A stretch of 64,000 nt of DNA from the NCBI RefSeq assembly GCF_026230175.1, contig NZ_CP104208.1, positions 2,356,001 through 2,420,000 of the forward strand, given 5' to 3'. The stretch is from Desulfovibrio mangrovi (GTDB taxonomy: Bacteria; Desulfobacterota; Desulfovibrionia; Desulfovibrionales; Desulfovibrionaceae). Numbering within the stretch: the stretch's first letter is position 1; every line of letters begins with the position of its first letter. The notes below the pieces were generated by a model, which did no database searches, was not told the DNA's origin, and saw nothing but the letters and a program-made list of their open reading frames with translations. The position numbers and the translations under genes are program-made. Of the stretch, positions 13,515 through 18,417 are shown in pieces.

Positions 13515-14060
13515 ATGTACAAGATCGCGTATGTCACCCCAGCCCAGGCCGAAACCGCTCCCGAATCCGTTCGCAAGGTATACGATGCATTCAAAGGCAA
13601 GGAGATTCCGGAACCTCTGCAACTGCTTTCCGCCAGCCCCGGCCTGCTCACCAACAAGTTCGAAAACATTCATTACTACATGTCCCACGAAACACTGAGC
13701 TTTCCGATGCTGGCCGCCATTCGGTACGCCGTGGCCCGAAGCTACAGCTACGAGTGCTGCACCGACTTCAACGATGACCTGCTCAAACGTTGCGGCATGA
13801 CGCCTTCGGACATTGAGACCCTGTATGCCTATGCTGAAGGCAGCCGCACAGAGACCATGGACAGCGGTCTGGAGGACAGGGAACAGAAACTTGTCCGTTT
13901 CGTTATCAGTGCCGTACAGGATCCTAAATCGGTAACCGAAGATCAGATCGCCGCCCTCCGTACTGAAGGCTGGTCCGACAAGGATATCTTCGACGCCCTC
14001 TGTCACGGAGCCAACATGGTTTCCGCCTCCATCATAGACTCGGCATTCCGCACCCGATAA
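13515..14060 (+). CDS. carboxymuconolactone decarboxylase / AhpD-like protein
   Basis: A 181-residue all-helical protein of the AhpD-like superfamily. The core helix pair is seen in MLAAIRYAVARSYSYECCTD and FDALCHGANMVSASII. The canonical CxxC-x3-H redox motif is not conserved: there are adjacent cysteines (YECCTDFN) with Asn where the family often has His. A peroxidase or thiol role is therefore uncertain. AAGGAG precedes ATG 13515. The TetR-type operator overlapping its promoter suggests induction by an electrophile or oxidant, in parallel with known NemR-type systems; this is inference. Confidence 0.8.
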   Translation: MYKIAYVTPAQAETAPESVRKVYDAFKGKEIPEPLQLLSASPGLLTNKFENIHYYMSHETLSFPMLAAIRYAVARSYSYECCTDFNDDLLKRCGMTPSDIETLYAYAEGSRTETMDSGLEDREQKLVRFVISAVQDPKSVTEDQIAALRTEGWSDKDIFDALCHGANMVSASIIDSAFRTR

Positions 14061-14366
14061 TGCCCAGCGGGCGGCAACGCCCCCCCTTGCCTCCCAAACG
14101 TTGCCGCCCGCCACACCACTCACTATTCCGCACCAAAACACCCACCTGAAACACTACCACTTGCAAAGACAACAGTGAGCCGCTTGCCCATTCGTATAAA
14201 ACTGCGTAGGTCTGCTTAAAAACCACCTTGATAAGGCTGGTCAGAAAAACAGGAGTTGTGCATAATGTGGTCGGACCACTCCATGGCCCGCGGGAAGACA
14301 CCCGTGAAAACGTGACAGGCGTTCATACGGGCAGGGCGGAGGGGTCCATAACGGGGGGAAATAATC
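14061..14366. other. intergenic region upstream of the GntR gene, with hairpin and operator
   Basis: 306 bp without a gene. The left part carries a 13-bp stem (GCGGGCGGCAACG 14067-14079, CGTTGCCGCCCGC 14099-14111), probably a terminator of the CMD-like gene although no U-tract follows. The right part carries the GntR promoter and operator (14238-14279). Confidence 0.65.
14238..14279 (+). promoter_or_regulatory. promoter and FadR-type GntR operator before the gntR gene
   Basis: TGGTCA (14238-14243), 17 bp and CATAAT (14261-14266) form a moderate promoter. Directly after the -10 lies GTGGTC-G-GACCAC (14267-14279), a perfect 13-bp palindrome of the TGGTNNNACCA class bound by FadR/PdhR/LldR regulators. 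Its place over the start site implies repression by the adjacent gene product. Confidence 0.75.
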
Positions 14367-15077
14367 ATGCATCGCATGCAGACTCAATCTGAAGAAATGC
14401 AGCAGACAAAGATTTACGAACAGGTAGTGGCCCGCATACGTGACCTCATTGATTCCGGCCAGATACGACCGGGCGACAAGCTACCCTCAGAACGCAATCT
14501 GGCAGAGATTTTCAAGGTATCCAGAAGCTCCCTGCGCGAGGCAATTCGCGCCCTGCAGGAAAGCGGGGTACTGGAAAGCCGCAGGGGAGACGGCACCTAC
14601 GTCTCGCTGCCCCCCGGCAGCGACCTTCTTGCGCCGTTTGCGGAAGTAATGACCCAGCAGCGGGTTCGGCTGTGGCAGCTGTTCCAATTCCGGCTTGCCA
14701 TTGAGCCGCAGATTGCCCGCCTCGCCGCGCAGGAACGGACAGAAGGACATCTTGAGGCCCTGCGTCACGTGCTGGAACTGCAGGAAAAGGAACTCGGCAA
14801 CGGAGAAAAGACCGGATATGCCGATCTGCATTTCCATCAGCTCATCGCCATGGCCACCGGCAACCCGCTTTTTGTGGATGTGGTAACCCGTGCCGAATCC
14901 AAGCTGGCGGAGACCCGCAATGAGCCGTTGCAGAGCGAAGAGCGCCAGAAAGCCTCGCTCCAGTCGCACAGAGACATATTTACGACAATTATGCAGCGTG
15001 ACGCTGATGCGGCCGAAGAGGCCATGCGCACCCACCTGCTGCTGGTAAGCAAACTGATATTCAGCGAAGCAAAATGA
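14367..15077 (+). CDS. FadR-subfamily GntR regulator of hydroxy-acid use
   Basis: A 236-residue regulator. The winged helix is seen in YEQVVARIRDLIDSGQIRPG, LPSERNLAEIFKVSRSSLRE and the wing RRGDGTYVS, residues about 10-80. A helical FCD ligand domain follows (ARLAAQER, HFHQLIAMATGNPLF with metal-binding histidines). LldR and PdhR in this subfamily respond to lactate, glycolate or pyruvate. GGGGGGA precedes ATG 14367. The next gene encodes an FMN hydroxy-acid dehydrogenase 114 bp downstream, which fits a lactate- or glycolate-responsive repressor. Confidence 0.93.
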   Translation: MHRMQTQSEEMQQTKIYEQVVARIRDLIDSGQIRPGDKLPSERNLAEIFKVSRSSLREAIRALQESGVLESRRGDGTYVSLPPGSDLLAPFAEVMTQQRVRLWQLFQFRLAIEPQIARLAAQERTEGHLEALRHVLELQEKELGNGEKTGYADLHFHQLIAMATGNPLFVDVVTRAESKLAETRNEPLQSEERQKASLQSHRDIFTTIMQRDADAAEEAMRTHLLLVSKLIFSEAK

Positions 15078-15191
15078 CCGGAACCACGCACCCGATGCGT
15101 TCTTCCGGTGAAGCGATAACACAATCGGCCTGCGGGCCGCATAACGCTGTCCGCTGATCGGACAGTGTGCATTCATCAGGAGATGACCAAC

Positions 15192-16214
15192 ATGAAAGAA
15201 GTACGCGCCAACGCTCGGGAGCTCATGAAGGGCTACTGCCGCGTCTGTCCCGTCTGCAACGGCAAGGCCTGCGCCGGAGAAGTGCCCGGCATGGGCGGTC
15301 TTGGCACCGGCTCCTCCTTCGTAGCCAACGTGGAAGCGCTGACGGACTACAAGCTGCGCATGCGTCTCATCCATTCCGTATCCAACCCGGACCCCTCCAC
15401 GGAGATTCTGGGTATGCCCCTTTCCATTCCCGTACTGGCAGCGCCCATCGGCGGCGTTTCCTTCAACATGGGCGGCAAGGTGACAGAAGAGGACTATATC
15501 ACTTCCAAGCTGAAGGCCTGCGTGGCCAACGGCATTGTAGGCTGTACCGGTGACGGCGTTCCCCCCTTCATCCATGAATCCGGCTTCAATGCCATCAAGG
15601 CCGTGGACGGCAAGGGCATTCCCTTCATCAAGCCGTGGGAAGACGCCGAACTCTTCGCCAAGCTGGACAAGGCCGCAGAAACCGGCTGTTCTGTCTTCGG
15701 CATGGACATTGACGCCGCCGGCCTCATCACCCTTGCCAAGATGGGACGCCCCGTTTCGCCCAAGTCTCCGGCAAAGCTCAAGGAAATCATCAACCATGTG
15801 CCCGGCAAGTTCATCCTCAAGGGCATCATGTGCGTAGATGACGCCAAGGCCGCAGTGGATACCGGTGCAGCCGCCATCGTGGTTTCCAACCACGGCGGTC
15901 GCGTGCTCGACCAGACTCCTGGCACCGCGCATGTGCTCTTCGACATCGCCGAAGCCGTGGGCAAGGACATCACCATTCTCGTGGACGGCGGCATCCGCTC
16001 CGGTGCCGACGTGCTGAAGATGATCGCACTGGGTGCGGACGCCGTGATGATCGGCCGTCCCTTCTCCATCGCGACCGTAGGTGGCCTTGAGCAAGGCGCG
16101 GGCAAGTACATCCAGCAGATTCAGAGCGAGCTTGTTTCCGCCATGGTGCTCACCGGCTGCAAGAGCCTTGCGGACATCACCCCCGAGATTCTGACAGACG
16201 TACTAGGCCAGTAG
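15192..16214 (+). CDS. FMN-dependent alpha-hydroxy-acid dehydrogenase with N-terminal cysteine cluster
   Basis: A 340-residue TIM-barrel flavoenzyme of the lactate dehydrogenase/glycolate oxidase family. The catalytic His-Arg motif is SNHGGRVLDQTPGT, and FMN-binding VDGGIRSGADVLKM and GADAVMIGRP follow. It oxidises a 2-hydroxy acid, perhaps L-lactate. Unlike LldD it begins with a cysteine-rich stretch, YCRVCPVCNGKACAGEVPG, typical of a branch found in anaerobes. ATG 15192 follows AGGAGA; ATG 15183 is an alternative. A small stem-loop (15147-15165) separates it from gntR. Its stop codon lies inside the first unit of the 43-bp tandem array. Confidence 0.9.
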   Translation: MKEVRANARELMKGYCRVCPVCNGKACAGEVPGMGGLGTGSSFVANVEALTDYKLRMRLIHSVSNPDPSTEILGMPLSIPVLAAPIGGVSFNMGGKVTEEDYITSKLKACVANGIVGCTGDGVPPFIHESGFNAIKAVDGKGIPFIKPWEDAELFAKLDKAAETGCSVFGMDIDAAGLITLAKMGRPVSPKSPAKLKEIINHVPGKFILKGIMCVDDAKAAVDTGAAAIVVSNHGGRVLDQTPGTAHVLFDIAEAVGKDITILVDGGIRSGADVLKMIALGADAVMIGRPFSIATVGGLEQGAGKYIQQIQSELVSAMVLTGCKSLADITPEILTDVLGQ

Positions 16215-16440
16215 GCCAAGTGCGACGCATATTCGATCAGGCGTACTTGGCCAGTAGGCCGAGTACGACACAAATTCGATCAGACGTGATTGGCCAATAG
16301 GACAAGTACGACGTAAATTCGACCAGACGTGGTTGGCCAGCAGGCCAACCACGGCGTAAACCCGATCTGACGTGCTTGGCCAGTAGGCCAATTACAGTGT
16401 AAGCCTGATCAGGCGTGCTTGCCCAGTAGGCCAGCACCCC
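16206..16440 (+). repeat. 43-bp tandem repeat array forming hairpins, in the 3' UTR
   Basis: Five full 43-bp units start at 16206, 16249, 16292, 16335 and 16378; a sixth, partial unit starts at 16421. Each begins GGCCAGTAGGCC or a near copy and ends in CTT, ATT or GTT. Each unit junction folds into a hairpin with an AGTA-type loop: for example CGTGGTTGGCC (16328-16338) with GGCCAACCACG (16343-16353), and CGTACTTGGCC (16242-16252) with GGCCGAGTACG (16257-16267). Stem bases change in pairs between units. The array starts inside the last codons of the hydroxy-acid dehydrogenase gene and ends before a terminator, so it is probably transcribed. Function unknown. Confidence 0.9.
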
Positions 16441-16461
16441 AACACACTACGCAACAATGAA

Positions 16462-16488
16462 GAAGGCCGCCCCATTCGGGCGGCCTTC
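16462..16488 (+). terminator. hairpin terminator after the repeat array
   Basis: An 11-bp perfect stem (GAAGGCCGCCC 16462-16472, GGGCGGCCTTC 16478-16488) with a 5-nt loop. The T-tract is weak, so termination strength is uncertain. Confidence 0.7.
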
Positions 16489-16581
16489 ACTGTTCTCATC
16501 TCAAAGAAATCCTGCCGTTCGCCGCATACGCGCCCCACAAGGACGCCAAGCATACCCTCGTTGCCAAACGGCCAGCCCCGC

Positions 16582-16887
16582 TTACGCGTGGGCAATCAGC
16601 TGCATCTGCTGCTCTTCGGCATACACGTCGTCAGCGCGTATCACCTGCAAACGAAACTTGGTAACTCCGGGGGTGCAACGGGGGCACCCATGGGTCAGGA
16701 TCATGCATGAGGAGTCCAGTTCCGCGCGGACGATATCCACGCCCTCCAGGATTTCCGAGGTACGCCCCTTGTTCCACAGGACAGGACGACCGCAGTGTTT
16801 GCATTCTACATACATCAGGTCCGGATCGAATCCGGAGACATCGGGGTGAAAATGGAATCTGTGCAGTTCATTGATCGGCTGATGCAT
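16582..16887 (-). CDS. small zinc-ribbon-like protein of unknown function
   Basis: A 101-residue protein with two CxxC knuckles, VECKHCGRP and GCPRCTPG, spaced about 38 residues apart, which suggests a zinc ribbon. The N-terminal part is His-rich (ELHRFHFHPDVSG). ATG 16887 is chosen because AAAGGAGG lies just upstream; an upstream ATG at 16917 has none. It is not recognised as a named family. It follows fetB on the same strand by 67 bp and may be the last gene of that operon, which would hint at metal handling; this is only positional. Confidence 0.7.
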   Translation of the reverse strand: MHQPINELHRFHFHPDVSGFDPDLMYVECKHCGRPVLWNKGRTSEILEGVDIVRAELDSSCMILTHGCPRCTPGVTKFRLQVIRADDVYAEEQQMQLIAHA

Positions 16888-16954
16888 GGCACACCTCCTT
16901 TCCGGACTGGCGTACACGTTACCCTTGCGGGATTTGCCATCCCCCCCTGCAACA

Positions 16955-17740
16955 TCAACTTCGTAACAGAAGGTTCATGGCGGGGCCGAAACAACGCCTT
17001 CTCACCAGATGGAGCACTATCAGCGCCGAAAGGGCTGTTGCAGCGACTATCATGATCATAACCACTATCTGGTAGCGCACTGCGTCCGCCGGGTCTGCCC
17101 CGGCCAAAATCTGCCCTGTCATCATTCCGGGAATGGACACGATGCCCACACCCATCATTGAATTGATCGACGGGATCATGCCCGCCTTAAGGGCGTTTCG
17201 GAACATTTCCTTGCTGGCTTCACGGAAGTCCGCACCGAGACACAACATCATCTCGACCTGATCCTTCCTGCTCCGCAGTTCCGAAAAAAACCGTTCAAGA
17301 CCGATTGCCAAAGCGTTCATGGAATTGCCCGCCACCATTCCCCCGATGGGAATGAAGTATTGGGGGGTCCACCACGGTTTCGCACCGATGATCACACCGG
17401 TCACAATGAAGGTTATGAGGGTATAGCTTACCATTACTGATACCATGGTAGGTGCGTAATAGTCTATGCTCTTTTCTTTCACCCGCCCTTTTATAATGCG
17501 GACGGAAAACCAGGTCATGACAAGATACACGGCCATGACAAGCAGCGCATTATGCAAATTGAATATGATCTTGAGCAGATACCCCATGGCGAACAACTGG
17601 GCAAAGGTGCGGAAGGTACCTATGGCAAGGTCCTTCTGCAACCGCAGTTCGTAAACCACCGAGGCCCCGCCCGCTATGGCGACCAGCACCAGTGCCATGC
17701 CCAGCTGCCACAGGGAAATCTGGATATAGCCCCCGTTCAT
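16955..17740 (-). CDS. fetB: FetB-type ABC permease (UPF0014/YbbM)
   Basis: A 261-residue membrane protein with about seven TM helices. The family core PIGGMVAGNSMNALAIGLER and GVGIVSIPGMMTGQILAG is clear. In E. coli FetAB exports iron and raises resistance to oxidative stress. The start codon overlaps the end of the ATPase gene by 4 bp, so the two are translationally coupled. Confidence 0.92.
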   Translation of the reverse strand: MNGGYIQISLWQLGMALVLVAIAGGASVVYELRLQKDLAIGTFRTFAQLFAMGYLLKIIFNLHNALLVMAVYLVMTWFSVRIIKGRVKEKSIDYYAPTMVSVMVSYTLITFIVTGVIIGAKPWWTPQYFIPIGGMVAGNSMNALAIGLERFFSELRSRKDQVEMMLCLGADFREASKEMFRNALKAGMIPSINSMMGVGIVSIPGMMTGQILAGADPADAVRYQIVVMIMIVAATALSALIVLHLVRRRCFGPAMNLLLRS

Positions 17741-18417
17741 GCCGTCACCTCCGCCGCAAGATCACAGAAGGCAAGCCGCCCCTCACGCACCATGACGCCG
17801 GTATGCGCCACCTGCGGACGGTAATCCGAATGCGTCACCATGATGATGGTCATGCCTTCCCTGTTGAGTGTTTCCGTCAACTCCTCCACAATCCGCCTGC
17901 TCTCGCGGTCAAGGGCACTGGTCGGCTCATCCATGAGCAGCAGCTCCGGCCTGAGAAGCAGAGAGCGGATAATGCACAGCCGCTGCTTCTGCCCTACGGA
18001 AAGCGCCGTAGCGGCATCGTCCAGCCTCACGCCGTCGAGCGCCACCCGCTGCAACCAGCTGTTCAGTTCCTCGTCGGCAGGCACCGGTTCCTCCTTGTTC
18101 ACGGCAAAGGAGTATGGCAACAGCAGGTTTTCCCGCACGGAGCCTTCCATGACCACCGGCGTCTGCTGTATATAGCCGATACGCCGCCTGAGCCGGGGCG
18201 GTTCGTAGTCCGCCAACGGCTGCCCCGCAAAACGGATGGATCCGGAATCCGGCTCCTCCAGCCGCGCCGCCAGTCTGAGCAGCGTGGACTTGCCGGAACC
18301 CGAAGGACCGGCGACCAGTACAAGTGCTCCCCGGGGCACGGCAAGCCTGACATCATGCAGTCCCTTGCCCCCCGGCCAAGTATATGAGACGGTATCGAAA
18401 TCGATTATTGTTTCCAT
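17737..18417 (-). CDS. fetA: FetA-type ABC ATPase
   Basis: A 226-residue ABC ATPase. Walker A is GPSGSGKST (residues 37-45), the signature is LSVGQKQR (Val for the usual second Gly position), Walker B is LLLMDEP, and the switch histidine is in MVTHSDYRP. It pairs with the overlapping FetB permease as a putative iron exporter. No ribosome-binding site precedes ATG 18417, and the promoter places the transcription start at or next to that ATG, so the mRNA is probably leaderless. Confidence 0.92.
   Translation of the reverse strand: METIIDFDTVSYTWPGGKGLHDVRLAVPRGALVLVAGPSGSGKSTLLRLAARLEEPDSGSIRFAGQPLADYEPPRLRRRIGYIQQTPVVMEGSVRENLLLPYSFAVNKEEPVPADEELNSWLQRVALDGVRLDDAATALSVGQKQRLCIIRSLLLRPELLLMDEPTSALDRESRRIVEELTETLNREGMTIIMVTHSDYRPQVAHTGVMVREGRLAFCDLAAEVTA

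Follow-up and report, generated by a model that had tools for sequence, protein, structure and literature searches.

Enterobacterial REPs are dispersed elements that occur in many copies, and template switching at imperfect palindromes yields paired changes without selection. RNase R and the stem-loops of REPs are treated in PMC2777011, and in E. coli lacZ reporters quasipalindrome template switching was observed to make imperfect palindromes more perfect (PMC7202029). Tandem repeats that overlap a stop codon are known from a survey of Yersinia pestis, where this was the case for 10 of 88 VNTRs (PMC3689786). The passages of that survey on such loci describe low diversity at some of the stop-codon VNTRs and suggest possible selection, which leans towards a function.

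The locus presented here lies in a 64,000-nt stretch of Desulfovibrio mangrovi DNA (the window) and consists of a 43-bp tandem array at the 3' end of a dehydrogenase gene. As in the stop-codon VNTRs, the stop codon is found inside the array, so that a change in copy number need not alter the protein end. Unlike in those VNTRs, as they are described in the passages above, the units are diverged (81% matches) and palindromic. With the quasipalindrome reporters the locus shares an imperfect inverted repeat that would have become more perfect, a change for which selection is unneeded; in contrast to the reporters, the template switch is here proposed from sequence. Like REP/BIME elements, the array places palindromic units that could hinder exonucleases behind a gene, whereas it occupies one locus and appears to derive from the gene end.

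Tandem Repeats Finder reported a single array in the window, at 16195-16433, with a period of 43, 5.6 copies, 81% matches, no indels and a score of 247. A repeat search of the window, in which the spacing of 43 was seen four times, agreed with this result. When set in register with the gene end, the array fills 16188-16402 with five complete 43-bp units and runs on to 16433 with 31 bases of one more. Past this position the unit sequence is lost, with 2 of the next 12 bases agreeing with the unit. The features are as follows.

15192-16214, plus strand: open reading frame of the FMN-dependent alpha-hydroxy-acid dehydrogenase gene (Pfam FMN_dh, E 1e-65)
16188-16230, plus strand: unit 1, 27 coding bases including the stop codon and 16 downstream bases
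16199-16209 / 16214-16224, plus strand: stem of unit 1, 10 of 11 pairs
16231-16273, plus strand: unit 2, stem with 11 of 11 pairs, one of them G-U
16274-16316, plus strand: unit 3, weak stem with 9 of 11 pairs, -5.4 kcal/mol
16317-16359, plus strand: unit 4, stem with 11 of 11 Watson-Crick pairs, carrying two compensated pairs
16360-16402, plus strand: unit 5, stem with 9 of 11 pairs
16403-16433, plus strand: partial unit 6, 31 of 43 bases
16462-16488, no strand assigned: G+C-rich hairpin past the array, with a core common to the three nearest congeners

Unit 1 starts within the dehydrogenase gene and contributes, in its first 27 bases, the final eight codons and the TAG; this stop codon (16212-16214) is located at the hairpin loop and the first base of the 3' arm. 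Five full units and a partial sixth, with the stop codon in unit 1, had been proposed in a preliminary description of the locus, and this layout was confirmed by Tandem Repeats Finder, the spacing and the gene register. The 11-bp stems had been described as mostly paired, which holds for units 1-5 (10, 11, 9, 11 and 9 pairs) and fails for unit 6, which has 6 pairs in this register and folds as a shorter, shifted hairpin. The array is made of head-to-tail copies of a unit longer than ~10 bp, as in a minisatellite, and contains the stop codon of the gene. Such a repeat is far from what chance would give: in a 400-kb sample of the 3.95-Mb chromosome, taken together with the window, the other tandem repeats reported have periods of 9-24. 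A repeated peptide, already thought unlikely, was rejected, as 43 is not a multiple of three and frame-0 read-through hits further stops. By eye, nothing clear was seen of a codon-position bias in the distal units. The literature searches covered open-licence papers and were aimed at subjects other than the dehydrogenase gene; no paper found in them was recognised as being about the array.

The dehydrogenase gene is present in all nine congeners (71-93% identity), and 50 of the 59 genomes searched, own included, match it at E 0.001, some of these being weak matches to other proteins. The 14 NCBIfam models listed for the dehydrogenase all stayed below their own cut-offs. The 400-500 nt after the dehydrogenase stop were read in each of the nine congeners, and the array was found in none of them, giving five extra units here and none there. 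The three nearest relatives, G006, G003 and G004, whose dehydrogenases have 93, 90 and 86% protein identity, carry the core of the closing hairpin starting 25, 35 and 25 nt past the stop, respectively, compared with 248 nt in the window. Subtracting five units (215 nt) from the latter leaves 33 nt, i.e. the spacer equals 33 + 5 × 43. Because the congeners lack the array and the hairpin-core spacing fits 33 nt plus five units, the simplest history of the array is that the end of this gene expanded in tandem within the lineage. The congeners share the protein end that unit 1 encodes. Partial unit 6 and the spacer are most likely the remains of the gene end as it was before the expansion, with unit 1 now serving as the coding end.

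A genus-wide DNA search with 16212-16450 gave only weak matches in congeners (best E 0.11), two of which were the gene ends of G003 and G009 (19-20 bases, 95%, E 0.11 and 0.41); unit 5 agrees with the end of the G003 gene in 17 of 18 bases. Tandem Repeats Finder was also applied to 110 homologous loci (L002-L111, score at least 40), each covering 90 bases before to at most 700 after the stop, two of them with less than 250 bases of flank and some present twice from different collections. Only the window's own locus carried a 43-bp array, and 11 others held unrelated repeats with periods of 7-21. Past the stop of the orthologous gene in G007 (L009), an unrelated 18-bp repeat of 2.2 copies was observed at ~164-203 nt.

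Searches for further copies were made in the genome and beyond. A DNA search of the own genome with the array region at E 0.001 returned one match, the array itself. When up to 3 mismatches were allowed, the 16-bp core matched 55 times, compared with 54 for a reversed control pattern; the six matches with 0-2 mismatches were all within the array, and those listed outside it all had 3 mismatches. A covariance model built from units 1-5 was run against 288 family genomes at E 0.001 and found five units here and one stretch elsewhere, under strict filters (22 candidates scored per listed genome) with which weak copies could be missed and unit 6 went unreported. The other stretch, in G017 (E 3.4e-4 per genome, 288 genomes searched), was rejected as a second array, being a lone palindrome with no array in the 160 bases shown around the match. 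With these filters no second array was found in the own genome or the 287 other family genomes. Phage and plasmid records gave no match at E 0.01, so an origin from either was discarded, as was a known RNA family, with 0 Rfam matches in the window at gathering score. Searching the unit in this genome and its relatives, as had been advised, hence led to one locus in the genome and to 0 of 9 congeners, and the comparison with congeners backs the earlier suggestion of a minisatellite.

The units have diverged considerably. Neighbouring units differ by 19-23% among units 1-5, while units 5 and 6, compared over 31 bases, differ by 16%; the range over all pairs of units 1-5 is 19-35%, greatest between the farthest. 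Divergence correlates with separation, with r = 0.95 for units 1-5, a value that 2 of 120 permutations attained, namely the actual order and its mirror image, and r = 0.81 for six units (2 of 720 permutations). At fourfold-degenerate sites, the dehydrogenase gene differs from that of G006 by 34% (181 sites). The similarity of unit divergence to this value, together with the distance gradient, indicates an old array without recent homogenisation, which would be about as old as the split from G006 if the units change at a similar rate. The diverged units, in the one genome of the species compared, speak against a repeat that is very unstable today, and the description of the minisatellite as recombination-prone appears doubtful.

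We think it likely that the array is a lineage-specific, near-neutral minisatellite, which was seeded at a palindromic stop codon and arose when the 3' end of the host gene was duplicated in tandem. The ancestral gene end would have read GGCC AGTA GGCC, a short palindrome that places the stop codon at its loop. During replication the nascent strand may have folded at this site, and slippage or template switching may have copied the neighbouring arm to give a longer palindrome. Later slippage would have repeated a 43-base segment, moving the old terminator hairpin five units away from the stop codon and preserving the protein end, with unit 1 still encoding this end and the stop. The array would then have decayed by point mutation with little homogenisation. 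If transcribed, as is presumed, it would form a 3' UTR of ~250 nt folding into hairpins, probably with slight effect on the life of the mRNA.

The present palindrome spans the stop, with the codons for VLGQ and their neighbours as 5' arm and most of the stop as loop. The 3' arm in unit 1 is non-coding except for the last base of the stop. Its outer bases complement the coding arm. They break off where the partial last unit ends, with 2 of 12 bases in agreement there, and the three nearest congeners lack them behind their stop codons. Such a pattern would be expected if a polymerase folded back at the short palindrome, copied the nearby arm and slipped later to add units; a fold-back template switch may have been the initial step. 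The hairpin is not a general ancestral feature, as the folds of the stop region differ among the congeners: no conserved stop-codon hairpin was found in the nine, whose 52-nt folds have z of -2.1 to +1.5, compared with -2.4 for the own gene (mononucleotide shuffles). G003 forms a hairpin that is shorter and carries AGTA in its loop, and the other congeners have no common shape by eye. The locus offers a clean natural example of a gene whose 3' end was duplicated into a long structured 3' region with the protein end intact, and the array-free state is visible in close relatives.

The first alternative, which we regard as unlikely, is that the array is a selected RNA element, whose hairpins, lined up in the 3' UTR, would either bind a protein or make 3'-to-5' decay of the dehydrogenase mRNA slower. 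In units 1-5, 50 of the 55 stem cells are paired, compared with 46.6 ± 1.3 when stem substitutions were permuted within units (P 0.015); this simple permutation excluded unit 6, the worst paired. Under the same permutation of units 1-5, the occurrence of at least one doubly changed pair had P 0.15. Unit 4 has two pairs doubly changed relative to the commonest pair, and the replacement of A-T and C-G in unit 2 by G-C and G-C in unit 4 was as first described, with the reservation that the second pair position is broken in units 3 and 5. Template switching is another, selection-free way in which unit 4 could have become fully paired. Neutral simulation of units 1-5 on a neighbour-joining tree gave P 0.06-0.08 for pairing, and a tree-based null matched for stem divergence gave P 0.09-0.11. 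With all six units, the observed value was reached by 246 of 500 shuffles for percentage paired, 106 of 500 for doubly changed pairs, 167 of 500 for further pair types and 122 of 500 for the covariation score.

Two further comparisons bear on the stems. RNAalifold on the six aligned units, another check that had been recommended, omitted the most variable pair; it kept one doubly changed pair of ten and returned a covariation term of +0.53. Sliding the stem partner abolishes pairing, as expected of any palindrome. Differences from the consensus amount to 12/110 in stems, 2/20 in loops and 15/85 in linkers, with no significant difference between stems and linkers (Fisher P 0.21). Covariation support for structure, drawn from only six related units, is weak and not convincing, and the selection on structure read from the pairing pattern in the preliminary description is not borne out by the tree-based null (P 0.06-0.11), the shuffles for covariation score or the stem-linker comparison. 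The locus also illustrates that paired changes in palindromic repeats can mimic RNA selection where a null corrected for the kinship of the units lends it little support.

Folding energies were then considered for the same alternative. A region of 311 nt folds at -144.3 kcal/mol, with z -10 and none of 100 shuffles as low, which speaks for an RNA element. This is not by itself evidence of selection, because the fold includes the closing hairpin and inter-unit pairing and the shuffles destroy palindromes. Five of the six single plus-strand hairpins were matched by 0-3 of 200 shuffles, and unit 3 by 11 of 200. Summed over the single hairpins, the energy is -83.6 kcal/mol for the plus and -77.1 for the minus strand. 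The best fold of the region mixes units rather than forming six separate hairpins, and the minus strand folds similarly to the plus, indicating that DNA palindromy explains the hairpins. The absence of the array from all nine congeners and the probable terminator hairpin already present at the 3' end also argue against selected RNA. A role in protecting the mRNA is possible.

Some observations count against the near-neutral part of the minisatellite reading. Pairing exceeds the simple permutation (P 0.015), stems differ less than linkers (not significantly), and plus-strand folding is slightly stronger. Non-Watson-Crick cells lean to G-U over A-C (4 vs 1), i.e. to pairing in plus-strand RNA, with five cells being too few to weigh. 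Furthermore, five old units still fold, and a useless array might have been lost. In a combined history, which we hold to be improbable, the stop-codon palindrome would have seeded a hairpin array by fold-back template switching, and the array would then have been kept as it stabilises the dehydrogenase mRNA. If true, a protein-coding end would have been turned into a new RNA stability element.

It is very improbable that the units serve a protein as palindromic sites on the DNA, recurring every 43 bp, or about four helical turns, and so presented on one helix face. The perfect or near-perfect dyads at constant spacing would suit such sites. The array is, however, located between converging genes, and the only promoter-like site in 14000-17000 by a simple scan is at 14238-14266. 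Moreover, the core and its control match the genome almost equally often (55 vs 54), those listed outside the array all having 3 mismatches, and the gene end already explains the unit. A mobile or dispersed repeat of REP/BIME or MIRU type inserted at the gene end, as its palindromic units and extragenic position might suggest, is hardly credible, given a single locus instead of many copies scattered over the genome, only a lone palindrome besides the five units in 288 family genomes (strict filters), no phage or plasmid match at E 0.01, and a unit that holds the gene's own conserved codons.

The hairpin at 16462-16488 had been taken to end the transcript. A simple terminator scan flagged it on the minus strand only, although in each of the three nearest congeners the gene is likewise trailed by a hairpin sharing this core. 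It lies between converging genes and is probably a terminator.

Directly upstream of the dehydrogenase gene and on the same strand, 14367-15077 encodes a GntR-family regulator with an FCD domain, likely a local regulator of hydroxy-acid use; its best NCBIfam matches, NanR and LldR, are both below cut-off. At 16955-18417 on the minus strand, a UPF0014 permease and an ABC ATPase form a pair that resembles the FetAB iron exporter and scores below the NCBIfam cut-offs for FetB and FetA. The next open reading frame past the array is on the opposite strand (16582-16917, minus), and the 102 aa of 16585-16890 (minus) have no Pfam or NCBIfam match at E 0.001. This ~102-aa minus-strand protein (16582-16890) has the cysteine pairs CKHCG and CPRC, and DNA like 16582-16890 was seen by eye at the same place after the dehydrogenase gene in the three nearest congeners.
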